The translations under genes and the position numbers were made by a program. From Rickettsia bellii RML369-C (GTDB taxonomy: Bacteria > Pseudomonadota > Alphaproteobacteria > Rickettsiales > Rickettsiaceae): 64,000 nt of DNA. Below, in pieces: positions 27,330 through 42,502 of the stretch (position 1 is its first letter; every line of letters starts with the position of its first letter). A model generated the notes under the pieces. The model saw only the letters and a program-made list of their open reading frames with translations. It had not been told where the DNA came from and searched no databases. Location of the stretch: positions 372,001 through 436,000 of the forward strand of contig NC_007940.1 in assembly GCF_000012385.1 (NCBI RefSeq). The letters are read 5' to 3'.

Positions 27330-30192
27330 TTATAACTTAACTTTTAACTTAACAAAACCTTGGTGGCTTTTATACTTCTTTTGTAAGTGACAATTATACT
27401 CGACTAATACACTTATATTACCTTTTTCAGCTAAAATATTAGCACCGATATTGTAGCCAATTTTAGGTTGTTTTGGTAATGCAACAATTTCAGTAACTTC
27501 TCTATCTTTCCATTTTATTTTAGCAGCAAGTTTTTTATTTTTGTTGTTAAAATAGTTCTCTACAGAAGCCATAATTGTTGGGGTAATGCTTACTGCTCCT
27601 ATTTTTTGTGGAGCTAACGATACATTACCGCCTACAATACTAGACCATATATTTTGCTTTTTAGAGGCAATACTTAAATGCTGAATACCAGCTCCGCTTT
27701 CTTGATAAGTACCATCTTTAATATAACCATATCTTATTCCGATATTTGGAGTGAAGCTCACTTTATTGCTGTAAGATAATTATAACTTAATAAACTTTCA
27801 AAATTATAATTATTATTCTTATATTTACCGTTTGCAATAGTGCCTAAGCGGTTGATCTTACTCTTTACAATATTATGGTTATAAGCAAACATACCTTGGA
27901 TCATAAAGTTTTTTGGCAACTATTTTTGACCATATAAAGCTACGATATGACTATCGACATTAGTATTTAATTTACCACCGTTAGATTTAAACTTTGAATC
28001 TAGTCTAGTATAAGCGATACCGACTAAATCTTTATCATTATCAGATCCAATATCAAAACCGATAGTACCACCGGAAGTATGACCTCTATACCCTATAAAA
28101 CCTTTTTGAGTACCTTGCTTACTGATTCCATAAGTTCCTGATATCCAAAAACCTTTATCAAGCACTCTTTCATCTTCATCACCGGCAGCAACCCCAGTAA
28201 AACTATTTATTCTGCTAGATACAGTACCTTTGCTTACAGTATAAATGTCTTGAGTCGAATTAAAAATCGTTGCGACTACTTTCTCATCTTCTTTTACTGC
28301 TACCTGCATTGTCGCTACTTCTAAAGCTTCAATTCTTGCTTCATCTACATGTTGTGCCTCAAGGATAATAAATTCTTCTTTAGCTTTTTCCTCTTTATCT
28401 AATTCTTCAGCTTCTGCTTCTTTAAAAGATTCACTGCTTCCAGTTTGTTCTTGATCTTGTCTTCGGTTTTCACCTTGATTTTGATTTTGTGCTTGCAGCT
28501 GAACTTGATTTTGACCCTGCTCCTGTAGTCCTCTTAATTTTAATATTAACGTCCTTAGATCCCCCTTCTCTCTTAATAATTCTGCTATTTGTGCTTGTAG
28601 CATCTGCACGGCTTCATTTTCCGGTAAAACTATTACCTCCTTTGCTTCTACATTTCCTTGGCGAGTTATTACTCGTGCTACAGGTACTGGATTTGGAGAT
28701 AAATCAGGAATTATCGGATTTGCTTCAATTCCTGTTCCAAATTTATCCGTTGTGATATTTTCTATTGTTCCGTCTGCTCTTTCAATCGTAAGTCTAATAT
28801 CATTTATAAGATTGGCTCTCTCAATATTATCTATATATGCAATAACAGCTCTTCTTTTTGCATCCTTAATTAATTCTTCTTCATATACATTATATGTAAC
28901 TTGTGTAACACCAGGTTGTGGTTTAAATGGAGAGCGTATATACTCAGATTCCTCGCCATACTTATCAACAACTAAGTTAGCCATCTTATCATCATATTGC
29001 TGTTGAGTAAGGTTGCCATTTTGGAATTGATGAGTCAAAAATTCCATATCATTTTTAATCATTAATGCTTTCTCTTGATAAGCTAATACCATTCCTCTTC
29101 CATCTTTTATAGCATTAATTTCTGCTTGTGTTAGATATTTCTTATACTCATTTTTTTCTTCTGATTTATCAACAACATTATCATAATATAAAATATAATT
29201 GTTACGTTTTTGGTGACGTGGAACTTGAATATTTTCAACAGCTTTTACTATATCGACACCATTTATTACTTCTGTTCTAATATCTTCTTTCAAATTTTTT
29301 AGTAATATTTCTTTTTCATGAAGTTGATCAAGTGTTAAGTCCTTATCTCTAAATGCTTTAATACCCTGTAGTTCAAAAGTTCTTCCTGCTTCAATAAGAT
29401 TATCAGTAACATCTATTTCTTTAATTATATTATCTCTTACATGAAAATATTTTATTTTATAATTATTACCTACAGTAAAACCACTTTTATATCCAATTGT
29501 AGGATTAACATTAATTGGTTTTACTTGAACTGGTGGAAGAGCTTTATTAGGGTTTACCGGGATATTGATTATATCATCTTTATTATAGTGCCAGTCATTT
29601 GCCTTTATTGTTTCAAGTATTTGTACTTTTCGAGCTAATGTTAATGGTGAATTATTTTCTTTTACTTTATTTAAGGTTCTTTCTATTTCTTTTCTTATGT
29701 TTTCATTCGGAGCTTCTCTTAATATAGGTTTAAAGAAGCGAATACCATCAAAATTATCATTAGCTCCTGTAATTTCTGGGTTTATTGCTACATGCGGTAC
29801 AAATCCTCCTGTTTTAATAGTATTCATAATTATATTTCTTGCAGCTCTTTCTGCTTCTCTTTCAGCTGCAGACCTTAATACGTTCTGACCTTTTGCAGCT
29901 TCATTTCGAGCATTTAACTTTGCTTCCACTACTTTTGCATCAATTATCTTCCCTTGTTCATCTCTTAAAATAGGTTTTAAATTTTTTTTCCTTTTAATGC
30001 TGCATTAGTACCGATTTCTGCTATATTATTAAAAGCTTCAACGTCCATACCTTTGTCAATAGCACGCTCACGAGCTTCTTTAATATCCGCCTTTGCTGTA
30101 GCTTGAGCTTCTAAATTTATGCCGGTTAATATAGTAGTTGCAGCACAAATTAAAATTAATTTAGAAAAGTTTTTTGATTTTATGTTAGACAT
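27330..30192 (-). pseudogene. Sca-like autotransporter (type V secreted surface antigen), broken at three places
   Basis: Three reading pieces form one protein of about 950 residues. Piece 1 (to 29977) starts MSNIKSKNFSKLILICAAT with a signal peptide ending near AQA. A run of eight A/T bases at 29982-29989 is one base short of keeping the frame. Piece 2 (27920-29929 and its upstream extension) is a coiled, Gln/Glu-rich passenger (NQVQLQAQNQNQGENRRQDQ) followed by FTGVAAGDEDERV and early beta-barrel strands. A TAG at 27920-27922 and a frameshift near 27775 cut it from piece 3 (27330-27761), the final barrel strands. Autotransporters display adhesins on the outer membrane; this one should not be made intact. 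Confidence 0.85.
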
Positions 30193-30425
30193 AATATTCA
30201 GTACCCCTTGATAAATAATCATTAATTATAATTTAAAATATTAGTATTTTAGTTACTATTAATGAGAATTATACACGAAAAAAATATTATGTCAAAAAAT
30301 TTTTGTTATATTTATATAAGATAAAATATAGTGCGATTTAGAATCGCTTTGGACGAGAAAAATTTGAAGATAAGCTATAAAAATTATTGTTAATCATTAT
30401 AATTTATCCCTAATTGGTAGCTTTA

Positions 30426-30700
30426 TATACCCTTGATACCTTAAGATTTAGTAGGTCAAATTTCAGAATTCATCTTTGCTCACCTATTAAGTATACACCT
30501 AACTTAGGCTCACCACTTATTTGATTTTTAACTTTTGAAGTATTTGCGGTATATACTCGTTTTATTTGAAAAATTGATATAAAACCTTATAAGTTAGGAG
30601 ATAGCAACGTATTATTACATGCTCCATTTCTTGCCCTATAACATTTTAGCTATCTTTACAAATAAAACTTTTTTATAAACTTTTCATTTATTAAAAATAT
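30426..30700. repeat. Tandem palindromic elements: family A then family B
   Basis: 30426-30553 matches the family A copy at 970-1096 (ends TATACC and GGTATA, arm CTTTTGAAGTATTTGCGG). From 30551 to about 30700 follows a family B unit beginning TATACTCGTTTTATTTGAAA and ending near CAAATAAAACTT, seen again at 39.6 and 50.6 kb. The stretch 30701-30885 shows nothing recognisable. Confidence 0.75.
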
Positions 30701-30888
30701 ATCAAGCCTTTTAAAATATGTTACATCAGTGTAGATTTTAAGTAACTTATTTAAATAAATCTTAAGATTTAATTTTTATTAATATATAGTTAATTTGTTA
30801 ATCTACTGAGGTGCATTATATAGAATTTCTTCTATAGCTGCAACAGGTATTATTAAAATTTTTCAGGTATTGCTAACTAAATATAGAT

Positions 30889-31265
30889 ATCGTCATTACG
30901 AGGAAATGCATAGCAGAGGGCAGAGGCAATCTAGTTTAAAAAATGCTAACTTATAGCATTTTTTGTTATTTTCTGGATTGCCACGTCGCTTCGCTCCTCG
31001 CAATGACGATTATAATAATATTATAATTTTCCCCAAACATTACAGCGTCTCCGCAGAAATGATATAGAGCGTTTTTTTGGAATTATGCAGATCAGTTTTT
31101 CCGTCTGAGCTAAGGAAATTACAAAGTAATTGACGAAGCAAGGAAGTAAAAAAATTCTAACTTTATAACATTTTTATTATTATTTTCTGGATTGCCACGC
31201 TCATTTCATTTGCGTAGCTCAGACGACTCTCGATCCACGCAGGCAATGTTTCCTCGTAATGACGA
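30889..31265. repeat. Two palindromic elements, family D
   Basis: The first (30889-31010) runs from CGTCATTACGAGGAAATGC to CTCCTCGCAATGACGA. The second (about 31048-31265) shares the core TTATTTTCTGGATTGCCACG and the end TCCTCGTAATGACGA. Together with the family A/B pair they fill the 1.1-kb gap; no gene is seen in it. Confidence 0.75.
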
Positions 31266-31302
31266 AAAAATCAAACTGTGCAACAACTGCCTCTATAGCA
31301 TA

Positions 31303-31670
31303 TTAACCATTCTCATAATGTGGTGTTTCACCAAGTTTATCTACCTCATCTATTTTATTTTCTAAGGATGATGCTATATATGAACTTATAGTTGAGCAAA
31401 TTAAATCCACTGGAGTATAATCATCATTATCTTTTATACATATTTTTATTCCTGGACATTTTAGTAATATCTTTATTATATCTATGTTTCTTTTTGTATA
31501 AGCATAATGCAGTGCTGTTTTACCATAGATGTCTTGTTCGTTTACGTCGCATTTTCTATGTAAATGTATCCTTACATTTGAGATATTATTTTCCAAAACT
31601 GCTTTATGCAGTGGTATTGTTTAATTTTATCCATCTTAATTCTTGCTTTATTTTCAAAAAAGTCCCACAT
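31303..31670 (-). pseudogene. Ankyrin-repeat gene remnant
   Basis: The open part (31303-31608) reads LHKAVLENNISNVRIHL, then DIYGKTALHYAYTKRNIDIIKILL and DDYTPVDLICSTISSYI, about two and a half ankyrin units. Just upstream the frame shifts: an ATG-led stretch (MWDFFENKARIKMDKIK) is in another frame near 31620-31670. The protein is short and has probably lost most of its repeats. It lies between a repeat cluster and the helicase gene. Confidence 0.65.
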
Positions 31671-31730
31671 AATATGCTACTATAGGTTGTATGTGTGTCT
31701 TATAGCATATTATATTTAGTAAAGCAACTA

Positions 31731-34160
31731 TTAATTGAATAAATTTTTAGTTATTTCATACCAACAGTTTTCGGGGATATTTGATTTGTTACTAAAACCG
31801 CATATAATTAAATGATCTTTTGCTCTAGTCATTGCAACGTAAAGTAATCTTATATATTCTTGTAGATCCTTTAATTTCTCTGCTTCTTTTAGTTCTTGTA
31901 GAAATTTAGGAGTATCAGCAGCACTTGCAGAAAAATACATATCCCCATTATCATGCCAAATAAATTTATTACTACTGATAGGTAGGGTGGTGGAGTCGCA
32001 TAATATAATAATTGGGGCTTCCAAGCCCTTAGAGCCGTGTACTGTCATCACTCTTATTTTATCAGAATGCTCCATATCACGCTTAATCCAAATATCGTTA
32101 TTCTCAAACCAAGATACAAAGCTTTGCAAAGAATTATCCATATTATTTGCGTAATTGCTGCTTAGTGTTAGCAGCTCATTTACCATATCATCGATATGTA
32201 AATTTAGAGTATTCACAAGTAAATCAAAGAAATTATCGAGAGTAGAATTTTGATAAAGCTCGATAAAAGAAGTAAGTTTATTATATATATCTGGATGTGA
32301 GGACAGATTTTCCCACAAACTTTTATCGTTTTTATTTGTTAGAAGTTCATATAATTGTTGCTCGCTAATGCCGATAATCGGTGATTTAAGTAAGGCTGCA
32401 AGGTTTAAATCGTCGTAAGGTAAAAGTGCAAATTTAGCTACCGAGATTAAATCCATTATAGGCAAATGCTCTTTAATATTTACTTTATCGCTTGCCTCAA
32501 CTTTAAGTTTAGTTTTGTTAAGCTCTTTTATCAAATTATTGCTAAATTCATCTCGCTTTCTTACCAAAATCATAAAATCTTTTTCGGATATAGGATTACC
32601 GGTTGCTGGTAGAATTTCTTTGCTAGATATTTTTTCCTTTATGAAGCTAACAATTTTTTCTATAAGTAAATCAGCTGATGAAAGAGCATTAGCATAATCT
32701 TGTGGCAATGCCCAAAAAAGTTCCTCCTGCTTTTCGCTTGTTACCAAAGACCAAACTGTTACAGAACCGGTATGTGTACGAAATGCAGAAATTACCGGAT
32801 TATCGGACAGGAAAAGAGTAGGGTAATGAGCTTTTATATATTTAAAAACCTGATGAGTAAATTGTAAAATTTCGCCGCATGATCTATAAGAATATTCAAG
32901 TGTAATCTTCTTAAATTTTTTATTTGCTTTAGCAAGATTCGTTTGTAATTTCTCATTCACTAAATTAAAATTCGCAAGATCAGCACCTTGAAAACTATAA
33001 ATAGATTGTTTATCATCACCAACTATAAAGATGCTACTATCAGGTCTATTAAACTCGGTTATTAAAGTAGAGATTATGTTCCACTGATCACGGCTGGTAT
33101 CTTGTGCCTCGTCAACAAGTATATGATCAATCTCGCTTTCAAGCTTATGCGATAACCACTCATGTATAGCTTTATTCTGAAATAATTTCTCGGCATGGTA
33201 AATTAAATCATCATAATCAAGCAAGTTATTTTCTTCTTTAAATTTCTCATACTTTTCTAGCAAAATATAAGCAAGTTTAGAAAGTAAATTAGTATGATAT
33301 TCTAGCTCTTCTATGCGATATTCTTCATCTAATTTATAAATCTGAGATGTTAGTTTCTCTAACTCTAACAGCAATTTAGGATGTTTCTTTGTTAGCTCTT
33401 TTGATAAAAGACTTTTGCGTTTTTTTCCGTCTTTGGTAAAAAATAACTCTTTCGGCTCTATTTCTAAATCGTAATCTGCAAATAAATTTTTTATCTTATC
33501 ATAGATATTATTTAGCTCGGATAGTGCTAATCTCTTATTGTGTATTTTTGCCGGAATAGTTTTATGAGTAAATAACTTTTTGAATTTAATTTTTTCGTCA
33601 ATAATCTCGCTGAAAATATCCTGCAAAGTTATTTCATGAAAACGATTTAGTAAAGTTTTAATTAAATCATTATGTTCATCGCTTAAATAAATCTCATTTC
33701 GTATTTTTAGAAAGATATCTTGTAATTGTGTCTCTTCAAGAATCTGGAATTCGGGTGTTATGCCGGCTTCTACGGGAAAAATTTTAAGGATTTTTTGACA
33801 AAATGCATGAATGGTATAGATATTTAAAGGCTCATTATTATCAAGCAATTTGCTATATAGATTTTTTGCATTTTCAAGCTCTAAAGCAAGCGGCTTCTGA
33901 CCACTCATTAAGAAAAGCTCTTGTTCTAGTTGTTTGGGATCACAAAGAGAGAAAGTTTTGAGTTTGTTACTAATTCTTAGCTGCATCTCTATACTAGCTG
34001 CATTAGTAAAAGTAAGGCATAATATGTTTTGGAAATTTACTCCTTTGATTAATAGCCGTAAAAACCGATCAGTTAGAATTTTGGTTTTACCTGTGCCGGC
34101 AGAAGCCGAGACCCAAATAGAATAATCAGGATCAGAAGCTTGTTGTTGTAGATTGTTCAT
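31731..34160 (-). CDS. addA: UvrD/Rep-family helicase, AddA-like, without nuclease domain
   Basis: 809 residues. Superfamily 1A motifs in order: Walker A SASAGTGKTKILTDRF at 18-33, LCLTFTNAAS, HAFCQKIL, DHILVDEAQDTSRDQW, IFIVGDDKQSIYSFQGAD, MTVHGSKGLEAPIIIL and LLYVAMTRAKDHLIICG. AddA proteins normally run to about 1100-1200 residues with a C-terminal RecB-type nuclease; here translation ends at NCWYEITKNLFN, right after the helicase core. Either the nuclease has been lost or this is a helicase-only form that needs a partner. Role inferred: processing of double-strand breaks. Confidence 0.88.
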   Translation of the reverse strand: MNNLQQQASDPDYSIWVSASAGTGKTKILTDRFLRLLIKGVNFQNILCLTFTNAASIEMQLRISNKLKTFSLCDPKQLEQELFLMSGQKPLALELENAKNLYSKLLDNNEPLNIYTIHAFCQKILKIFPVEAGITPEFQILEETQLQDIFLKIRNEIYLSDEHNDLIKTLLNRFHEITLQDIFSEIIDEKIKFKKLFTHKTIPAKIHNKRLALSELNNIYDKIKNLFADYDLEIEPKELFFTKDGKKRKSLLSKELTKKHPKLLLELEKLTSQIYKLDEEYRIEELEYHTNLLSKLAYILLEKYEKFKEENNLLDYDDLIYHAEKLFQNKAIHEWLSHKLESEIDHILVDEAQDTSRDQWNIISTLITEFNRPDSSIFIVGDDKQSIYSFQGADLANFNLVNEKLQTNLAKANKKFKKITLEYSYRSCGEILQFTHQVFKYIKAHYPTLFLSDNPVISAFRTHTGSVTVWSLVTSEKQEELFWALPQDYANALSSADLLIEKIVSFIKEKISSKEILPATGNPISEKDFMILVRKRDEFSNNLIKELNKTKLKVEASDKVNIKEHLPIMDLISVAKFALLPYDDLNLAALLKSPIIGISEQQLYELLTNKNDKSLWENLSSHPDIYNKLTSFIELYQNSTLDNFFDLLVNTLNLHIDDMVNELLTLSSNYANNMDNSLQSFVSWFENNDIWIKRDMEHSDKIRVMTVHGSKGLEAPIIILCDSTTLPISSNKFIWHDNGDMYFSASAADTPKFLQELKEAEKLKDLQEYIRLLYVAMTRAKDHLIICGFSNKSNIPENCWYEITKNLFN

Positions 34161-34190
34161 TTGTTTTTGAATGTGAATTAGGTTTTGCCT

Positions 34191-34320
34191 ATGTCATCCC
34201 GTGGCTTGTCCACGGGATCCAGTAATGAAAATCATAAATACAGCAAATTTTTAGAATTAAAAGCTCGATTTATCTTGCTTTATCCTGGATCTAGTTTCCA
34301 AGCCACGGGATGACACTGAA
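34191..34320. repeat. Family C palindromic element coding the end of SURF1
   Basis: GTCATCCCGTGGCTTGTCCA at the left, CAAGCCACGGGATGACACTG at the right; an inner CTGGAT-type pair. The right half is translated as the last ~20 residues of SURF1 on the minus strand. Confidence 0.9.
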
Positions 34321-34982
34321 CGCTTATAAATCCTATAAATTACAACTAAAGATGCGGCGAGTCCAAACCAAGTAAAAGCGTATTCTAAATGATCGTTTCT
34401 AATAGCTGCTAAATGATTTATTGACAGTGGTAGCAAAATATCTAGATTGCTAATATCTTTGCTCTCTTCAATGAGATAAAAATTTTCAAGATTTAAGCCT
34501 AAAACTTTAGATGCCTCTTGTAAGTCTAGAGTCAACCATACATTGTTTTTAATATCATTGGCAGGTAAGTAGCTACGAGTTTTTTCGGATGGCATAGTAA
34601 CGCCGATAAGCTCATGAGGTTGGTCATTGGTTGCTTGCGTAATAATATTTTTATTGCGGTTACTAAACCAACCACGTGCTACTAAAATAATTTTGTCTTC
34701 ATCGGTCTTAAATGGTGTAACTAAATAATAGCCATCCTTTTCACTCGACATTGACCGCCTACCATATAAATATATGTCTTTATCAGGTAAAAAATGCCCA
34801 GTAATTTTTACTTTATGATAGGGCAGATTATCTTGAATTTTAGCTAAATCAATTGCAGGAGAGGTAAGATTTTCTTGCATCGATGCTAAAAATAGCTTCT
34901 TTTCTTTTAAGCGATTAAGCTGCCAAAAACCTAGTAAGACAAGGATTATAAAGGTGATGAGTACGGTGAGTTTGGTTTTCAT
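34257..34982 (-). CDS. surf1: SURF1-family cytochrome oxidase assembly protein with repeat-derived tail
   Basis: 241 residues. SURF1 helps insert heme a into subunit I of cytochrome c oxidase in the inner membrane. The N-terminal span (LTVLITFIILVLLGFWQLNRL) keeps the FWQ-x-x-R-L motif; YLYGRRSM, GYYLVTPF and ILVARGWFSNRNK follow; the second span is YAFTWFGLAASLVVIYRIYK. After this the residues SVSSRGLETRSRIKQDKSSF are encoded by a palindromic element, not by SURF1 ancestry. The start is two bases downstream of the stop of the MFS gene, so it may be cotranscribed with that cassette. Confidence 0.93.
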   Translation of the reverse strand: MKTKLTVLITFIILVLLGFWQLNRLKEKKLFLASMQENLTSPAIDLAKIQDNLPYHKVKITGHFLPDKDIYLYGRRSMSSEKDGYYLVTPFKTDEDKIILVARGWFSNRNKNIITQATNDQPHELIGVTMPSEKTRSYLPANDIKNNVWLTLDLQEASKVLGLNLENFYLIEESKDISNLDILLPLSINHLAAIRNDHLEYAFTWFGLAASLVVIYRIYKRSVSSRGLETRSRIKQDKSSF

Positions 34983-34984
34983 AA

Positions 34985-36163
34985 TTAAATTTTAATTTTA
35001 TAGTATATACTTATGCATATTAACAAAAATAAACAGATTGTAGAAGTTAATATTGAAGTAAAGCTATAACCCATAAAATCAACACATATAGATGATATAC
35101 TTATAAAAATTATAATAAACAAAGTAATAATAACATTTATAAATGTTATTACATAACCTACCTTATGCTCATCTATATCATATAATATATTGGATAGTGA
35201 GGTTGAATAAATTGATTGGTATATAAAAATTAAAGTAAAGTATAATAATAGAGTAAAAAACTCTATATTAATATAATTTATTGTGGATATAATTATACAA
35301 TTTATAATTATACCTAATGATATAAAATTATTCGCTTTTGATTTAATGGTTGCATATGTAGAACCTAAAATTATTGCTATAGTTGCTACTATTTGAAATA
35401 AAGCTATGTTGTTATACCCATTTTCATTAAACTTAGAAGGTAGAAATATCCTAGATATTTGATAATACCCAAAAAAGAAAACATTAGATAAAAGAATATA
35501 AAATAAATTTTGTAACTGGAATTTATTTTTTGTTATGTCTTGGGAACATTTAAATAAGGAATATGAAGATATTGAAGCCTTATAACTTTTTAAATCAAGC
35601 TTATACCATTTAAAAGTACTATAACAAAGTATAGCTATTAGGCAATTTATTAAATTAATATTTAATACCTGAATAAAATCTTCATTATTAGGTATATATA
35701 ATAGTAAAATTCCTCCTAAAAAGGCTCCTAAAGTTTTAGCACTGTGGAAAAAAGAAAAACACTTTTTATGTAATTTAGAGTCAATATATCTCTTTATAGA
35801 TGTTATGGATATATTTCTATTCAATACCTCCAATAAACCACGTAATAAAATTATTATGTATAATATAAATAAGTCATCTAAATTTATATAAAACATATAA
35901 ATAACTAATAATAGATTAAGAGTACTATTAACTAGTAATATATTTATACCATGGTAATTATTGCTTATTTTAGCAATTATACTACTACCTATTATAGGAA
36001 GAATCCACATGACAGAAAAAACTGAAGAGGATAAAAAAAGTGAATTTGTACTATCTAAAATTCTTTTAGATATAAAAATTAATAGTACTACGTTTGATAT
36101 TGCATGATTTATTGAAGCAGTATAAATTAACAAAAATCGAAAATCTTTAAAAATATTATACAA
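34985..36163 (-). CDS. MFS transporter, 392 aa
   Basis: Twelve hydrophobic segments and no signal peptide, the usual layout of a major facilitator. The basic loop between spans 2 and 3 is modest (SIIAKISNNYHGI). The gene is extremely AT-rich and Ile/Tyr/Asn-rich, more so than its neighbours. It starts four bases after the GRDP-like gene and ends two bases before SURF1. With a peptide gene and an unusual small protein upstream, an exporter for a modified peptide is a reasonable guess; nutrient uptake is the alternative. The substrate cannot be read from sequence. Confidence 0.75.
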   Translation of the reverse strand: MYNIFKDFRFLLIYTASINHAISNVVLLIFISKRILDSTNSLFLSSSVFSVMWILPIIGSSIIAKISNNYHGINILLVNSTLNLLLVIYMFYINLDDLFILYIIILLRGLLEVLNRNISITSIKRYIDSKLHKKCFSFFHSAKTLGAFLGGILLLYIPNNEDFIQVLNINLINCLIAILCYSTFKWYKLDLKSYKASISSYSLFKCSQDITKNKFQLQNLFYILLSNVFFFGYYQISRIFLPSKFNENGYNNIALFQIVATIAIILGSTYATIKSKANNFISLGIIINCIIISTINYINIEFFTLLLYFTLIFIYQSIYSTSLSNILYDIDEHKVGYVITFINVIITLFIIIFISISSICVDFMGYSFTSILTSTICLFLLICISIYYKIKI

Positions 36164-36167
36164 TTTA

Positions 36168-36590
36168 TTAATTTATATATATTTCTTCAGTTTCATATAG
36201 CTCTTCATGAAATTCCTTCTTATAAAGTAATAGGGTATTTTCAAAAGCTTTTAAAAGTTCTTTTTTGTCCTCACCTATACCGAAATAAGGATTATGATGC
36301 TGATAATATCCAAATATTTTTTGACAATCTTCGTAATATTTACGGGTATCTAGTATATGATAATGCCAAAATATATCAATATCCTCAGAAGGTGGTAGAT
36401 CTAGAGAATCATATTTTACCCATAAAAATAACATACGTTTGTATTGTTCTTCCACAATATTCAACTTTTGTATACTCCATCCTTCAAATTCTTCTTTTTG
36501 CATTTTACTTTTTTGTTGTACAAAATCAAGAGATATTATTTTATCCCACAGAATATTTAATTGTTTATCTTTTTCTATTAAATTATTCAT
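36168..36590 (-). CDS. GRDP-like (glycine-rich domain-containing protein-like) protein, 140 aa
   Basis: The core from residue 55 reads LWVKYDSLDLPPSEDIDIFW, HYHILDTRKYYEDCQKIFG, then YQHHNPYFGIGEDKKEL. This D-x-F-W-H-x-H-I-L-D-T-x-x-Y motif is that of the GRDP-like family, whose biochemical function is unknown to me. The His-x-His and His-His pairs could bind metal. No membrane segment or signal. It lies between a tiny peptide gene and the MFS gene, so it may act on the peptide; that is inference from gene order. Confidence 0.7.
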   Translation of the reverse strand: MNNLIEKDKQLNILWDKIISLDFVQQKSKMQKEEFEGWSIQKLNIVEEQYKRMLFLWVKYDSLDLPPSEDIDIFWHYHILDTRKYYEDCQKIFGYYQHHNPYFGIGEDKKELLKAFENTLLLYKKEFHEELYETEEIYIN

Positions 36591-36615
36591 AATATTATTT
36601 TATTTACAGAGGTTA

Positions 36616-36642
36616 TAAAGGGATATTACTGATATCCCTTTA
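36616..36642 (-). terminator. Hairpin between the peptide gene and the GRDP gene (attenuator-like)
   Basis: An 11-bp perfect stem (TAAAGGGATAT and ATATCCCTTTA) with a 5-base loop, eight bases after the peptide stop on the minus strand. No strong U-run follows, so partial termination or 3'-end protection fits better than full termination. Such hairpins often separate abundant peptide messages from downstream genes. Confidence 0.6.
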
Positions 36643-36649
36643 CAATTTC

Positions 36650-36706
36650 TTAATCTAAACAACCTGCAGGTTTAGCTGGTTTTTGTATTAAAATAACTTT
36701 TTTCAT
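36650..36706 (-). CDS. Putative 18-residue peptide gene (candidate modified-peptide precursor)
   Basis: ATG at 36704-36706 follows the excellent ribosome site TTGAGGAAATT. The product is MKKVILIQKPAKPAGCLD and stops at 36650-36652. Lysine/isoleucine at the front and a short Pro/Ala/Gly/Cys core at the end resemble a leader-core split. A stem-loop follows, then a GRDP-like gene and an MFS transporter on the same strand. The strong ribosome site for such a short frame is the main evidence that it is translated. It could instead be a leader peptide for attenuation. Confidence 0.5.
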   Translation of the reverse strand: MKKVILIQKPAKPAGCLD

Positions 36707-36910
36707 AATTTCCTCAAGATTTTATTATTTAAATTAAATACCAGTTATCAACTAAGCTAATAACTGTACCAATATATATAGCTTATAATATATTTTTATA
36801 CAAAAAAATATCAACTAAGGCTAGTGATATTTTAGAACTTTATTGTAAAATTACAACCCACAATTGACTTTAAACTTTGAATCAATATATTTAATTTATA
36901 AATTAATATC

Positions 36911-37600
36911 CTATGCTTGCTTTAAAACCCTACTTAGAAATTCCTTATGTTTTTGTAATTCTTCTTTTGTTGGTTTAATAACGGGAATATTCCTATGTGC
37001 CTGAGAATCCAAGCGATTATAGCTTAAGTTATTTATTTTAGCAGCTTTATCAAGCATCTTAAAGGCTGACTGCCTACCGCCGGTTAGTTCTACATATACT
37101 TCAGCAAGTAAAGCTGCATCTTTAAGAGCACCATGAAGTTGCCTGCCAGAATTATCCACCTTGAATCTTTTACATAAAGCATCAAGGCTATATTTTGATC
37201 CAGGAAACATACTTCTAGCCATCACTAAAGTATCAATAGCATGCTCAAGTTCTAGGAGTTTAATTTCAGCTCTTTTTAATAATGATAATTCATGATTTAG
37301 AAATTTAACATCGAAAGGTGCATTATGAATAACAAGTTTACTATCGGCAATAAACTCTAAAAAATCATCTGCAATAGTATGAAATAGTGGCTTATCTTTT
37401 AGAAATTCACCGGAAATGCCATGAATTCTATAAGCCTCAAATGGCATGTCTCGTTCTGGATTAAGATAGAAATGAAAATGTCTGCCGGTTAGTACCTTAT
37501 TTACCATTTCAATAGCACCGATCTCAACAATTCGGTGACCGCCTTTTGGATCAAGTCCCGTAGTTTCCGTATCTAAAATTATTTCTCTTAAACTCGACAT
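36911..37600 (-). CDS. dnaQ: DNA polymerase III epsilon subunit (3'-5' proofreading exonuclease)
   Basis: 229 residues, DEDDh exonuclease: [13 protein letters not shown] at residues 6-18, [14 protein letters not shown] near 93, and [15 protein letters not shown] near 155 with the catalytic histidine and aspartate. It edits replication errors inside the Pol III core. The C-terminal tail that contacts the alpha subunit is short. Its start overlaps coaE by 13 bases, giving the run lpxI-coaE-dnaQ on one transcript. Confidence 0.96.
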
Positions 37601-38163
37601 TCTAAATTTGCTATTAGGTTATTTATTTGTTTTTCCAAGTCTAACATATCAACGCCGCTATTTATAGCAAAATCTGCTTTTGCTATTTTACTCTCCTGCG
37701 AAAGCTGAATTTCCTTTATCTTGTTATAGATTTCCACATCAAAAGAAGATCTAGTTGTTGCTCTTTGCATTCTTATTTCTTCAGAGCAATGCACAGTTAC
37801 GACAAAATCAAAATATTTATCAAATTTAGCTTCATACAATAGAGGTATTTCAGCAAACCCAAATTTGGAGTTTACGTTTTCCTGTTTAAATTGAATTAGT
37901 TTTTCTATCAGCAGGGGATAAATAAAATTTTGTAATTTCTCACGTGCGAGATCATTGTTATAAATTAAATTACTAATCTTCCCAATATTAAAAGTTTCAA
38001 GCTCCGGCAATAATTTTAAAATACCGGTTTGGATCTTTAAATCTTGATATAATTCTTTTATGCATCTATCGGCACAAAAAGTCTTATATCCTTTTTCTGC
38101 TAAATAATCCAAAATAAAAGTTTTGCCCGATGCATAGCTACCGGTAATACCTATTGCTAACAT
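37588..38163 (-). CDS. coaE: Dephospho-CoA kinase
   Basis: 191 residues, the standard size. P-loop [17 protein letters not shown] at the start, [12 protein letters not shown] (the CoA-binding Asp region), [23 protein letters not shown] near 105, and the lid region [11 protein letters not shown]. It phosphorylates the 3'-OH of dephospho-CoA, the last CoA step. It overlaps lpxI upstream and dnaQ downstream, an arrangement also seen in other alphaproteobacteria for coaE-dnaQ. Confidence 0.95.
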
Positions 38164-38969
38164 TTTGTTATAAAAATTTTATGTTCATTAGCGAGTTTTA
38201 TAGTTTTCTCTTCTTCAGCTATAATTACTTGTTTTTTTTGAATTGCAACGCCTTTGTAATTATATTTGGCAAGATTCTTTATAGTATTAACGCCTATAGT
38301 TGGTAAATCTAGCCTATTATCTTGTCCAATTTTTGAAAGCTTAATAAGCACTCCACCGCAAGATTTTTTACGTAAGTCTGCACATCTAGCTATTAAATTA
38401 TCCGTCCCCTCAGCCGCTTCTATGCCAAGCACATAACCATCTTCAACTATAACCGACTGACCTACATCAAATTTACTTAAATGATTTAATAATTTTACCC
38501 CAAATTCAATATCTTTTTTATCAGAATTTGTAGGGCTAGTATCAGTTATAATAGTAGAATCGCATTGTTGATTTTGATATATCTCACTACTTGAAATTAC
38601 CTTAAAGCCATAATTCTCAAAGAATTTAGCTACTATTCTTAATAAATTATCATCCCCACGAATTTTTTGGCTAATTATTTTAAGAAGTAATAAACCACCT
38701 ATTTTATCCACTGCCAAGTTTTTAAAATTTGGTCTATCGACTCCGCCTATAAAAATAATATTTTGGACGTTATATTGTGTAAAATACTTAATAGCTGCTC
38801 CAACCATACCGATTTTAAAAGGTTGATACTCAAAGTCCTTAATTAATTCTATATTAGCTTCGCCCTCTATCGCAGCTATATAACAATTACCACCTTGTTT
38901 TTTATAATTATCCGCTATTAAAGAAGGTAGCGAACCTTTACCGGCAATAATCCCAAGATTTGGTAGCAT
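38157..38969 (-). CDS. lpxI: UDP-2,3-diacylglucosamine pyrophosphatase LpxI
   Basis: 270 residues. LpxI (DUF1009) replaces LpxH in alphaproteobacteria and cleaves UDP-2,3-diacylglucosamine to lipid X in lipid A synthesis. The start LGIIAGKGSLPSLIADNYKK, the middle FIGGVDRPNF, SVIVEDGYVLGIEAAEGTDNLI and the end segment DLPTIGVNTI are family hallmarks. No membrane span; it acts at the inner face of the inner membrane. First gene of the lpxI-coaE-dnaQ run. Confidence 0.95.
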   Translation of the reverse strand: MLPNLGIIAGKGSLPSLIADNYKKQGGNCYIAAIEGEANIELIKDFEYQPFKIGMVGAAIKYFTQYNVQNIIFIGGVDRPNFKNLAVDKIGGLLLLKIISQKIRGDDNLLRIVAKFFENYGFKVISSSEIYQNQQCDSTIITDTSPTNSDKKDIEFGVKLLNHLSKFDVGQSVIVEDGYVLGIEAAEGTDNLIARCADLRKKSCGGVLIKLSKIGQDNRLDLPTIGVNTIKNLAKYNYKGVAIQKKQVIIAEEEKTIKLANEHKIFITKC

Positions 38970-39104
38970 AAAATAGTTTATAATTTAAAATCTAATATTG
39001 ATTATAAGCGTATTTTAAATATAAATCTAGAAAACCTTTACAAATTAATCAAATTAAGCGATAATAGTAAGTGCTAATATAGCTATAGTAATAAACGTAA
39101 TTTA

Positions 39105-39552
39105 GAATAGAGGTTGCGGACTCGGGGGCAGTACCCGACGCCTCCACCAATAATGTGCTATGTCATTCCTGAATGGAACAAAAGCCGTCTTCGGTGTCAT
39201 CCCGTGGCTTGCTAACTAGATCCAGCATAAAGCGAGATATATCGAGCTTTTAATTTTAAAAAGTTACTTTGTTTGTAATTTTTACTGGATCCCGTGGACA
39301 AGCCACGGGATGACAAGCTCTATAAGGCAATGACATAACAATAAAAATAGTGCAATGACAGGGGGGCGAAATAGGATCGACGTGCCTAATAAAAAAATTG
39401 CTTTTACTCGGGATGATTCCGCCGCAGGCTTTTGCCTTACGGGTCAAAACAAAGAAACGCAAACGATAACTATCGTTCCGCAGGTACTCCAGCTTTAGCT
39501 GTAGCATAAACCTGCACGGCTTGGGGGTTTGCCGGGTAACAGAAAAACCCTC
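39105..39552 (+). ncRNA. ssrA: tmRNA, permuted two-piece type, with a repeat in the excised loop
   Basis: The acceptor piece lies first: GGACTCGGGGGCAGTACCCG and then CGCCTCCACCA ending at 39149. The coding piece begins at 39362 with GGGGGCGAAATAGGATCGAC; GGGGGCG pairs with CGCCTCC of the acceptor piece to rebuild the tRNA-like end. The tag frame at 39459-39509 reads ANDNYRSAGTPALAVA and stop. The region after it, GGGGGTTT with AAAAACCC, closes a final pseudoknot/stem near 39552. tmRNA rescues stalled ribosomes and tags products for ClpXP. The excised loop at 39150-39361 holds a whole family C palindromic element. Ends are approximate. Confidence 0.93.
39196..39315. repeat. Family C palindromic element inside the tmRNA intervening segment
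   Basis: Ends GTCATCCCGTGGCTTG and CAAGCCACGGGATGAC are a perfect 16-bp inverted pair. It lies wholly between the two mature tmRNA pieces. Confidence 0.9.
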
Positions 39553-39553
39553 A

Positions 39554-39680
39554 AATATACTCGTTTTATTTGAAAAATTGGCGTCGTTGTTTTTTGCTTT
39601 TAATCTCACGTATTAAGTATATGTAGCTAGTAAAAGCTTCAAAACGCTTGGCTCTTTTCCAAATAAAACTTCGTCTACTT
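39554..39680. repeat. Family B palindromic element after tmRNA
   Basis: TATACTCGTTTTATTTGAAA at the left and CCAAATAAAACTTCGTCTAC at the right. Other copies are near 30.55 kb, 50.55 kb and, inverted, 49.54 kb. It begins right at the 3' end of tmRNA. Confidence 0.8.
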
Positions 39681-39706
39681 ACTTATATTATTTATTTCTT
39701 CTATAT

Positions 39707-40216
39707 ATGAATATCGAATATAAAAAATTTTTAAATGAATCTATGCTGGAATTTGTAAAAAAGGTTTTAGCAAGGATTCAGCATGAAAATTTATATTGGG
39801 ACCAATTAATATATATATCATATAAGACTGATCATCCAGCTGTCATTTTGCCTTTAAAAGTTAGACAAGCATACCCAAAAGAAATAACGATAGTACTTCA
39901 GAATCAATTTGAGAATATAATAGTAAAAGATACCGGATTTTCTGTAATGTTAAGTTTTAGCGGCATTAAAGAAACAATTTATATACCATTTGATGCTCTT
40001 ATTAGTTTTGTTGATTCAAGCAATAGTTATAGTTTCACTTTTAATCAGCAATTAAATATACAAAATAATAATACAGCTGAAATATTGAAAATAGAAAAGC
40101 AAATTCTGGAAGAAGAAAATAATGATAAAATTGATGAAGCTTTGTTATCAAAAAATGTTATTATGCTAGATAAATTCCGTAACTCTTCTAAGTCTAAACC
40201 TATTAAACCTAGTTAA
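39707..40216 (+). CDS. sspB: SspB-family ClpXP adaptor (alpha type)
   Basis: 169 residues. The core LYISYKTDHPAVILPLKVRQ, YPKEITIVLQNQFENIIV, TGFSVMLSFSGIKETIYIPF, DALISFVDSS aligns in order with alphaproteobacterial SspB, which binds the ssrA tag and hands tagged proteins to ClpX. The tail (residues 128-169) is charged and likely flexible, ending in a basic segment that could be the ClpX-docking peptide. It is the first gene after tmRNA, on the same strand, separated by one repeat. The ribosome site is weak. Confidence 0.9.
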   Translation: MNIEYKKFLNESMLEFVKKVLARIQHENLYWDQLIYISYKTDHPAVILPLKVRQAYPKEITIVLQNQFENIIVKDTGFSVMLSFSGIKETIYIPFDALISFVDSSNSYSFTFNQQLNIQNNNTAEILKIEKQILEEENNDKIDEALLSKNVIMLDKFRNSSKSKPIKPS

Positions 40217-40220
40217 AATA

Positions 40221-40688
40221 TTGAAAGAAGATATATCGAAAGTAGTTATATATACCGATGGTGCATGTTCTGGCAATCCAGGTCCAGGAGGGTGGGGAGC
40301 GTTACTTCAATTTAATGAGGTTAATAAGGAAATATTTGGGCATGAACTTGAGACTACTAATAACCGTATGGAAATTACAGCAGCTCTTGAAGCCCTAAAA
40401 ATTCTAAAAAAACCTTGTCATGTGGAAATTTATACTGATAGTAAATATTTACAACAAGGTATTACCGTTTGGATCCATAATTGGATAAAAAACAACTGGT
40501 GTAAAAGCAACAATGAACCAGTTAAAAATGCTGATTTATGGCAAAATTTGTACGAAGAATTAAGCAAACATACTATCATTTGGAAATGGGTGAAAGGACA
40601 TGCAAGTAATAGCGGTAATATTGCTGCTGATAAACTTGCAGTACAAGGAAGACAAACTGCTATAGAAATTTTAAAATGTCGTGGATAA
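40221..40688 (+). CDS. rnhA: Ribonuclease HI
   Basis: 155 residues with all four catalytic acids: D in IYTDGACSGNPGPGGWG, E in NRMEITAALEAL, D in EIYTDSKYLQQG and D in NIAADKLAVQG. It removes RNA from RNA-DNA hybrids. The start is a TTG at 40221, four bases after the sspB stop; no ATG fits the conserved N-terminus. The end overlaps the next gene by 13 bases. Confidence 0.96.
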   Translation: MKEDISKVVIYTDGACSGNPGPGGWGALLQFNEVNKEIFGHELETTNNRMEITAALEALKILKKPCHVEIYTDSKYLQQGITVWIHNWIKNNWCKSNNEPVKNADLWQNLYEELSKHTIIWKWVKGHASNSGNIAADKLAVQGRQTAIEILKCRG

Positions 40689-40975
40689 ATAAGTTTTTTA
40701 TTACTTTTTTTCATAAAAAAGTAGGAGAAGATGAGTTACTAAACCAATATTACGAAAGTAAGAAGCTTGACTATTTAGGGCGTCCTAAAAGATTTGTTAT
40801 TTATAAAAATGCTAATGAACCAACAAAAATTTCGCCAAGTTGGCATGCATGGTTGCATCATTTAGTAAATGAAGTACCAAAAAATATTAAGCTTTTTTCT
40901 TGGCAAGAAAGTAATAAAATAAGCCAAAAATCATCTAAATCATCGAATGCTAGATATAGCAGATGGCAACCATAA
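40676..40975 (+). CDS. NADH:ubiquinone oxidoreductase NDUFA12-family subunit
   Basis: 99 residues. Matches the mitochondrial B17.2/NDUFA12 family through YLGRPKRFVIYKNANEPTKI and PSWHAWLHHLVNEVP. It is an accessory subunit of complex I kept in alphaproteobacteria and mitochondria. The basic tail (KSSKSSNARYSRWQP) is typical. It overlaps rnhA and is followed 24 bases later by mlaD, the common alphaproteobacterial order. Confidence 0.93.
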   Translation: MSWINKFFITFFHKKVGEDELLNQYYESKKLDYLGRPKRFVIYKNANEPTKISPSWHAWLHHLVNEVPKNIKLFSWQESNKISQKSSKSSNARYSRWQP

Positions 40976-40999
40976 ATCAACTATTTGGTATAAAAAACA

Positions 41000-41449
41000 A
41001 TGAAACAAAACATTATTGAAACAATTATCGGTTTTGCAGTATTAATTATTGCTTTCCTATTCTTAATTTTTGCTTATAAAACTGGTAGTTCTATGACTAA
41101 CGCCAAAGGCTATCAGCTCACTGCCAGCTTTCAAAGTGCGGAAGGAATATCAGTCGGAAGTGACGTGATGATTTCAGGTATAAAAATCGGTAATGTTAAA
41201 AAGATTTTTTTAGATCCAACAAGCTATTTTGCTACTGTATATTTAAATGTCAATGAGAATGTTAAAATACCCAAAGACTCAAAAGCTCAAGTAGTTACTA
41301 GTGGTCTACTTGGAGGTAAATATATTGCAATCGTACCAGGAAACGATAATGATTATTTAACACCTAATGAGGAAATAAAATATACTCAATCGGCAATTAA
41401 TATCGAATCCTTAATTAACAAAATCGTTTCTTCATTCGGTAGTAAGTAA
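41000..41449 (+). CDS. mlaD: MlaD-like MCE-domain lipid transport protein
   Basis: 149 residues. One N-terminal membrane anchor (IGFAVLIIAFLFLIFAYKTG) then a single MCE domain: YQLTASFQSAEGISVGSDV, SGIKIGNVKKIFLD, and TSGLLGGKYIAIVPG. MlaD hexamers link the MlaFE ABC transporter to periplasmic lipid carriers and keep the outer membrane asymmetric. The other mla genes are not in the window. Its last 18 bases overlap the 3' end of the opposing uvrC remnant. Confidence 0.93.
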   Translation: MKQNIIETIIGFAVLIIAFLFLIFAYKTGSSMTNAKGYQLTASFQSAEGISVGSDVMISGIKIGNVKKIFLDPTSYFATVYLNVNENVKIPKDSKAQVVTSGLLGGKYIAIVPGNDNDYLTPNEEIKYTQSAINIESLINKIVSSFGSK

Positions 41450-42502
41450 ATCTCTCAATATCTGGGCTTTGCTTCCTCTTTTTGGCACTATAAATTTAGT
41501 TTTTATATTATATAGTTTTTTAAGAGAACTAATAATTGGTTCAGAATTTTGTATCGGCACGTTAATTATTATTTCTTTAGCAGGTTTTCTTGTTTGATAA
41601 AACTGACCTATAAAAGACTCTAAAACTTCCGCTTTAGTATTTGTCTGATTATAAATGGGGGAATAGTTTTGCTCCCCCCATTTCTGTCCTCCTCTGTAAA
41701 GCAGAACTTTAATTTGGAATCGGCTATCATCTCTAATTACAATCACATCAGCATCTATTATCCCTTCATATTGTTTTCCAATGCGTAATTTAGATAATTT
41801 TATAAGATTGATCCTATCTCTAATTAAAGCTGCTTTTTCAAAATGAGAATGATCGCTTAGAGCCTGCATTTTGAGTGCTAATTTTCCTAGCAATTTTTCT
41901 ATATTACTTGATAAAAAATCGTTAATCTGCTCTATCAACTCGGCATAATCTTCTTTAGAAATATTACCTGTGCAAGGAGCAAAGCATTTGCCAATTTCAT
42001 ATTCTAAACATGGACGTTTTCTAAAGGCAAAATCGCTATCGCTACAAGTTCGTAGCTTAAAGATTTTTTGTAACTCTGTAATGATCAAGTCGATTTGATG
42101 TCCAGAGGTGAAAGGTCCAAACAATTTATTTCCTGTTGAATTATCTAGATAACATTTTACTAATGTAGGGAAGTCATGGTCTGATCGTAGCTTTATATAG
42201 CTGGCTGATTTATCTCGTCTAAGTAATATATTAAAACGTGGTTGATGTTGCTTAATTAATTGTGTTTCCAGCAAAAAAGCTTCGCTTTCTGAAATAGTAA
42301 CTTTATATTCAACTAAATAAACTTGATGCACCATTCTAGCTATTCTGCCACGCAAATTATTTTTACTATAATAGTTTAAACGTTTTTTTTAATTTTTAGC
42401 TTTACCTATATAAATAATTTCCTTATCAGAATTATACATTAAATATATTCCTGGTAGAGTAGGAACTAAAGGTAGTAACTTTTTTATTAGGTTTGCTAAC
42501 AT
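41432..42502 (-). pseudogene. uvrC: uvrC-like excinuclease, nonsense codon at 38 and C-terminal half absent
   Basis: Starting at 42502, MLANLIKKLLPLVPTLPGIY leads into the GIY-YIG nuclease (YIGKAKN) and then a TAA at 42389-42391 where UvrC has leucine in the motif K-A-R-N-L-K-K-R; TTA to TAA explains it. The frame then runs on: KKRLNYYSKNNLRGRIARMV, PRFNILLRRDKSASYIKL, the Cys-rich CLEYEIGKCFAPCTG and the UVR region. It stops at residue 356, before the C-terminal RNase H-like nuclease and HhH domains, so about 270 residues are missing. A complete uvrC may exist elsewhere in the genome. Re-initiation at 42355 would lose the catalytic GIY-YIG. Confidence 0.85.

Follow-up and report, generated by a model that had tools for sequence, protein, structure and literature searches.

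A candidate RiPP-like cassette with a GRDP-like protein in Rickettsia bellii RML369-C and its relatives in distant bacteria

Introduction

Among ribosomally made, modified peptides (RiPPs) are some whose precursor is fused to another protein, of which the borosins are an example. Methanobactin systems combine a precursor, MbnA, with a TonB receptor, MbnT. The loci described here resemble RiPPs, including borosins, in having either a short precursor that comprises a leader and a core, or else a presumed modifying protein to which many core repeats are fused. Exporters beside some of the cassettes, and hairpins after the precursor gene in the six that were folded, are further points of likeness; the difference is that the protein common to these loci is GRDP-like (PF07173/DUF1399). 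The likeness to methanobactin systems lies in a related clade where a Cys-core precursor and a GRDP-like gene occur near a TonB-dependent receptor, often with a TonB-type protein, whereas the cassette from Rickettsia has no receptor beside it. As a further difference, nothing resembling MbnB or MbnC was noticed among the neighbours.

The DUF1399 domain is shared with plant GRDP1 and GRDP2. AtGRDP2 carries it at the N-terminus, followed by a C-terminal glycine-rich domain with interspersed cysteines (PMC4299439). The plant proteins differ in being large eukaryotic proteins known from studies of growth and stress, and the available portion of that paper describes no peptide-modifying role for them (PMC4299439). 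At the level of the titles and abstract openings covered, the literature yielded no link between GRDP/DUF1399 and a bacterial peptide product. There is also some likeness to TIGR04222 (near_uncomplex), as one Planktothrix protein (L012) has a GRDP-like N-terminus together with TIGR04222 and carries a GGCGG tail. However, that protein is a long membrane protein, whereas the GRDP-like protein studied here has no NCBIfam match and no tail.

Results

Gene content of the cassette

The window is the whole 64,000-nucleotide stretch of R. bellii RML369-C that was analysed (contig NC_007940.1, positions 372,001 to 436,000). The cassette is read on the minus strand in the order peptide frame, stem, GRDP-like gene, MFS-type gene, and consists of the following features (window coordinates):

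36709..36715, minus strand: ribosome-binding site GAGGAAA of the peptide gene, 2 bases before the ATG (direct sequence reading)
36650..36706, minus strand: precursor-like peptide gene of 18 codons, translating to MKKVILIQKPAKPAGCLD, with one A-x-C core motif (PAGC)
36616..36642, no strand assigned: perfect stem of 11 bp with a loop of 5 bases, between the peptide and GRDP-like genes (sequence and simulation)
36168..36590, minus strand: GRDP-like (DUF1399/PF07173) protein of 140 aa, modelled as all-helical, with an FWHYH / WHxH motif (open reading frame, Pfam, AlphaFold, alignments)
34985..36163, minus strand: MFS-type membrane protein of 392 aa with a TTG start, proposed exporter (open reading frame; about 10 predicted transmembrane helices)
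34994..36921, no strand assigned: approximate extent of an insert between dnaQ and surf1 (ends of aligned flanks; 1.9 kb, AT-rich)

An earlier note on this DNA had described the 18-codon frame with its GAGGAAA site, the perfect 11-bp stem, a 140-residue GRDP-like protein with an F-W-H-x-H motif and an MFS gene four bases beyond it on one strand, and all of these parts were found, in that order and spacing. Both protein assignments lie below curated Pfam cut-offs, since the GRDP-like protein scores 16.3 bits against PF07173 (gathering cut-off 22.7) and the MFS-type protein 31.8 bits against PF07690 (cut-off 33.4); by hydropathy the latter has about 10 transmembrane helices, compared with a criterion of about 12. 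PHROGs gave zero matches for the three proteins. Pfam and NCBIfam placed neither the GRDP-like nor the MFS-type protein in a RiPP modifying enzyme family, and no TonB-dependent receptor was seen among the open reading frames of 30000-42000 (by eye) or the seven flanking and cassette proteins scanned.

Chance would rarely give such a stem at this base composition: ten 64-kb Markov sequences together held one stem of 11 bp or more whose arm reached 27% GC or more. A terminator scan called it on the plus strand only, and found 2 terminator-like sites in the region compared with 0.2 expected. The stem may set the ratio of precursor to protein or protect an mRNA end.

Insertion between dnaQ and surf1

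The GRDP-like gene has no match in any of the 22 other genomes of the genus. In 20 of these the site is empty, with 105-306 bp between the dnaQ and surf1 flanks; G020 has them about 92 kb apart, and G017 cannot be judged because its flanks sit on different contigs. GC content is 20.9% in the MFS gene, 25.5% in the GRDP-like gene and 26.3% in the peptide gene, compared with 31.2% for the whole window. The empty site, the absence of the gene from the rest of the genus and the low GC support the earlier suggestion that the cassette was acquired recently, apparently by horizontal transfer.

A palindromic, repeat-like stretch (34190-34320) overlaps the 3' end of surf1, and some other genomes of the genus have similar-looking repeats between dnaQ and surf1. 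ARAGORN places a permuted (two-piece) tmRNA gene at 39057-39600.

The GRDP-like protein

PF07173 matches 62 of 63 aligned homologues (alignment A3) at E<=0.05, with a best value of 9.5e-8. Residues W75, H76, H78, D81, T82, Y85, C89, H98 and H99 are invariant in the 63 sequences, and D72, W75, H76, H78, Y85, D88 and H99 stay invariant in a more mixed set of nine. The AlphaFold model of the window protein is all-helical (pLDDT 91), and comparison with solved structures in the PDB gave no match for the fold. The conserved His/Asp cluster suggests that the GRDP-like protein is probably a metalloprotein with its site at these residues.

Distribution of relatives

Relatives were collected in several ways. 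By tblastn, 37 plasmid records had a GRDP-like match, of which 13 were examined; a scan of genome contigs gave 521 GRDP-like relatives, and the best 80 of the 521 were taken as 78 loci. A model built from nine proteins was used to sample genomes, and matched in 27 of 385 genomes of the class (the window genome included), 30 of 398 of the phylum (overlapping the first set), 35 of 369 of a second class and 12 of 36 of one order, many of these matches being weak and belonging to a wider superfamily. A GRDP-like protein is also encoded on eight viral contigs, of which six exceed 90 kb. Seven of these eight frames have Gly/Ser/Cys-rich tails (two, L150 and L151, are identical) and the eighth, L157, is short; the tailed proteins (L150-L156) occur on viral contigs of about 80 to 530 kb. 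In a tree of 50 rows, where G913 was not placed, the nearest relative of the window protein is encoded on a plasmid of Maritalea (support 98/90).

Background rate of short Cys frames

Short Cys frames behind a ribosome site are found upstream of 7 of 49 window genes, the GRDP-like gene among them; of 280 control genes elsewhere, 25 have an upstream short frame of this kind, with a ribosome site and a Cys late in the frame. At these rates the window peptide frame alone proves little, so that the case for it rests on relatives. These rates are also the reason to weigh seriously the view that the frame is a chance open reading frame and only the GRDP-like and MFS genes are real.

We applied a fixed rule to 32 GRDP-like genes kept by a gene picker from 40 stretches of other genomes, with 280 controls. 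Such an upstream frame was present for 12 of the 32 and 25 of the 280 (Fisher p 6e-5). In all 12, the final 15 residues of the upstream peptide include two or more Cys, which holds for 7/280 controls. A Cys after the domain occurs in 14/32 GRDP-like tails and within the last 39 residues of 110/280 controls, so tail Cys as such was rejected as a discriminator; at least two tail Cys are present in 11/32 and 42/280. The looser count, an upstream frame or any tail Cys, reaches 25/32, but this is weak support because controls reach 128/280 by the matching rule. The argument from tails is thus carried by Ala at position -2 and by repeats rather than by the presence of Cys. The two-Cys count offsets the weakened tail count, and we retain our moderate leaning towards a peptide product.

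By eye, precursors beyond the fixed rule were seen in L227, L229 and L230, and a divergent one in L257. The pairing of a short precursor-like frame with the putative maturation gene is kept in relatives (12/32 versus 25/280), although L236, L259 and L272 showed neither a tail Cys nor an upstream peptide by eye.

Loci with a separate peptide

The Maritalea plasmid repeats the layout of the window. A 21-aa frame behind AAGGA, MKKVKVKTSKKAEARRCEPGP, is followed by a 9-bp hairpin, the GRDP-like gene and, directly after it, a 443-aa protein with about 11 predicted transmembrane helices. The gap between peptide and GRDP-like gene is 57 bases, compared with 59 in the window. The peptide is unannotated, its start having been picked within a 46-codon frame for the AAGGA site, and its Cys lacks Ala at -2. 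The earlier note had staked its proposal on conservation of the short frame in relatives, and the Maritalea layout, together with the two-Cys peptides upstream of 12/32 GRDP-like genes (7/280 controls), bears this out.

In P. savastanoi and Halomonas, annotated peptides of 44 and 42 aa end in GGHCQGGG(G/S)W and are accompanied by homologous membrane proteins. On the P. savastanoi 1448A plasmid (L003 4611-5384) the GRDP-like frame is split compared with that of strain PVFi1 (L004). Peptides of the form MNKVTS...GKAFCGKLCMP were identified in G323 and G233. A hairpin was found in all six peptide/GRDP gaps that were folded (the window and five others, a selected set).

Four gammaproteobacterial genomes (G1194, G1217, G913 and G1225) encode peptides of the form MK...KPAxC close to a GRDP-like frame. 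Among 294 frames of 14-30 codons with ATG and ribosome site in 402 kb (the stretches of about 10 kb fetched around GRDP-like genes), KPA.?C, a pattern fixed after the first examples had been seen, occurs in these four only, all at most 440 bp from a GRDP-like frame. The four loci vary. In G1194 the peptide overlaps its GRDP gene, which leaves no room for a hairpin; in G1225 it is on the strand opposite to the GRDP-like gene; and the GRDP frames of G913 carry stop codons. In the tree, the GRDPs of G1194, G1217 and G1225 group together (99/93) in a clade separate from the window protein, and G913 is unplaced, so the likeness of the KPAxC peptides to the window peptide may be convergent. The idea that peptide type follows GRDP phylogeny was not upheld for KPAxC.

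Membrane proteins and other neighbours

A protein with many transmembrane helices directly follows the GRDP-like gene in five cassettes. It is MFS-type in the window (below cut-off), a clear MFS protein next to the pair in G233 (8.8e-11), and MatE-like, below cut-off, in Halomonas with a homologue in P. savastanoi; in Maritalea it has no family match. Except between P. savastanoi and Halomonas, the neighbouring transporters have no significant likeness to one another by BLASTP. The window MFS-type protein has no match in 112 other related genomes or in plasmids, and two weak matches (E 4.6e-4 and 0.007) in 41 other GRDP-bearing genomes. On these counts MFS as a conserved partner was rejected. 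Elsewhere the pair is joined by a different multi-TM protein or has none beside it: no same-strand transporter was found beside it in G323, and none directly next door in G1194 or G1217, where a permease-like gene lies about 1.9 kb on in the latter.

Also present near some GRDP-like genes are candidate tailoring enzymes. Methyltransferases were identified near the copies in G233, Azospirillum and Stanieria, a dioxygenase-annotated gene in Azospirillum, and a SagB/ThcOx-annotated (nitroreductase) gene about 4.4 kb from the GRDP-like gene of Maritalea. The last is, by its annotation, the only tested neighbour placed in a RiPP enzyme family. As tailoring candidates, these genes fit a RiPP-like reading. 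In the Azospirillum stretch (L008 4941-10372) the GRDP-like gene is followed by the methyltransferase, a TauD/TfdA-annotated gene and a UvrA-like ATPase, perhaps for self-protection. The third gene of the Maritalea cassette (L002 7691-8458) has no Pfam or NCBIfam match; we take it, from a motif seen by eye, to resemble a sulfotransferase.

Loci with a TonB-dependent receptor

In a further clade, precursors of about 48-68 aa (starts set by eye) lie just upstream of the GRDP-like gene. They share a leader (LLxEI...PS...RF) and a Cys core (CSGxC, CNGxC), and 12 of them, from this related clade and not the window's own, align as a family with a conserved leader and a variable core. Differences at codon positions 1/2/3 in four precursor pairs number 45/37/91, and these precursors therefore look translated.

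A TonB-dependent receptor was identified by phmmer in 13 of 16 stretches, being absent in L229, L259 and L264, the last of which ends at a contig edge. The receptors include opposite-strand copies and partial or split ones (L227, L228, L231, L232, L236, L263, L265). In both stretches that were checked, Pfam confirms the receptor and a TonB protein. The GRDP-like genes of L227, L228, L230-L232, L236, L258, L260-L263, L265 and L219 are near a TonB-dependent receptor, often with a TonB-type protein. These loci, which mostly have a Cys-core precursor, are possible peptide metallophore loci.

This clade bears on whether the GRDP-like domain is an enzyme at all. It could be a binding or scaffold protein, with the Cys/Gly tails or Cys peptides serving as metal ligands (a buffer or carrier) and the MFS protein moving the loaded peptide. 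A receptor in the same stretch as the precursor in 11 of 12 loci speaks for such a role, as does the small, all-helical predicted fold, for which no catalytic match was recognised. A lone Cys, however, would make a poor metal site, and the window peptide and several tails have just one; in 28 of 77 fused tails (from the best 80 of 521 relatives) Cys is lacking altogether and repeated [YWF]S[GAS] stands at the corresponding location. We regard this account as unlikely.

The precursors of this clade also affect the reading of the short window frame as a translated leader that controls the hairpin, and with it the GRDP-like and MFS genes, by attenuation or translational coupling, and that is not itself a product. 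The very small size of the frame and its place directly before the stem are as such a leader would have them. But the peptides of many relatives are about 42-68 aa long, one set having a conserved leader and Cys core; Rfam gave zero matches in 34200-37600; and attenuation leaves unexplained the fused tails, with their up to about 20 copies of A-x-C. A leader function is, on this evidence, quite unlikely.

Loci with a fused tail

The A-x-C motif of the window peptide was found both in GRDP-associated peptides and in tails fused to GRDP-like proteins. Of the 78 loci from the best 80 of 521 relatives, 77 were readable past the domain (L034 was dropped). Among these 77, tails with Cys are present in 48, tails with at least two [YWF]S[GAS] and no Cys in 28, and neither in one (L028), counts that are not independent because most of the loci come from related Burkholderiales. 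Most tails in this best-80 set are tandem repeats, for example AYCAGP, AWCSLEAGKP and AYSGRVAAEA. Weighted by locus over the 48 Cys loci of the same best 80 of 521, Ala is at -2 of Cys in 87% compared with a background of 26%, and Y, W or F is at -1 in 89%; in 43 of the 48, Ala occupies -2 for half or more of the Cys. L021 has 7 copies of KPAYC and L078 has 20, and the window peptide has KPAGC. AlphaFold did not dock a fused tail onto the domain (pLDDT about 42-51 for the tail).

Of 51 readable loci, mostly from Burkholderiales (L015-L092, from the best 80 of 521), 40 have a member of one large gene family close to the GRDP-like repeat protein, mostly directly upstream on the same strand; one annotated record gives this family as EAL-type. 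An MFS-like family, recognised by eye, is common to 25 of these 51 loci (again from the best 80 of 521) but lies several genes off, and in L019 an MFS-like gene is 2.8 kb downstream with a reductase-like gene between. This may be plain synteny. A role other than that of a secreted product is possible for the Burkholderiales repeat proteins.

These tails complete the case against a chance frame. The layout repeated in Maritalea, the location of all four KPAxC frames in 402 kb near GRDP-like frames, the agreement of A-x-C with the fused repeats and the two-Cys count (12/32 versus 7/280) led us to reject it, and we consider it very unlikely despite the rates of 7/49 in the window, this gene included, and 25/280 among controls.

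The tails are also hard to reconcile with a small membrane-active toxin or bacteriocin for which the GRDP-like protein provides immunity or acts as antitoxin. In the fused relatives the Cys core belongs to the GRDP-like protein itself, unlike in a toxin/antitoxin pair. The MKK start and the Lys-rich character of several KPAxC peptides would suit a toxin, but the hydrophobic run of the window peptide is just four residues (VILI), and neither the GRDP-like nor the MFS-type protein has a match in PADLOC-DB (anti-phage defence). Such a function seems extremely improbable.

Discussion

Fused repeats, separate short peptides, hairpins, exporters and receptors are most simply accounted for by a RiPP-like system in which the GRDP-like protein handles an A-x-C core, and of which the window holds a minimal, horizontally acquired cassette. 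We favour this account with moderate confidence, from sequence and comparison of genomes, and with the same confidence suggest that the window peptide gives rise to a secreted, probably modified short peptide. The RiPP-like layout proposed in the earlier note is supported by relatives (12/32 versus 7/280, and Maritalea); that the peptide is modified, exported and a natural product is the inferred part of that proposal.

In the proposed scheme, the 18-aa peptide would be a precursor whose leader, MKKVILIQK, contains Lys and whose short core is PAKPAGCLD. As a probable metalloprotein, the GRDP-like protein would bind the peptide and act at the Cys of A-x-C; alternatively, it may be an indispensable binding partner for a step at that Cys. 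The hairpin would let more precursor be made than downstream protein. The product, presumably cleaved as well as modified, would be exported by the MFS-type protein and might take up metal, signal or inhibit rivals.

A bolder reading, which we hold tentatively and at somewhat less than even confidence, is that GRDP-like/DUF1399 proteins are a new family of peptide-modifying metalloenzymes acting at A-x-C (or A-x-S) and founding an unrecognised RiPP class. The class would have three layouts: a precursor with an exporter (the window, Maritalea, Halomonas); a Cys-core precursor with a TonB receptor; and a self-substrate with at most about 20 fused core repeats. Its members would be found in Pseudomonadota, Bacteroidota, cyanobacteria and huge phages, and the plant GRDPs with Gly/Cys tails may, by homology, modify themselves.

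In summary, distant bacteria repeat the pairing of a short peptide with a GRDP-like protein, and this points to a so far undescribed type of peptide, ribosomally made and probably modified. If this is correct, it would be the first bacterial role for a domain for which, at the level of titles and abstracts, functional work was found in plants only. The A-x-C motif and the marker domain would allow mining of hundreds of overlooked peptide loci (521 relatives in one scan), and the chemistry of DUF1399 would become directly testable. Rickettsia would gain a candidate peptide product.
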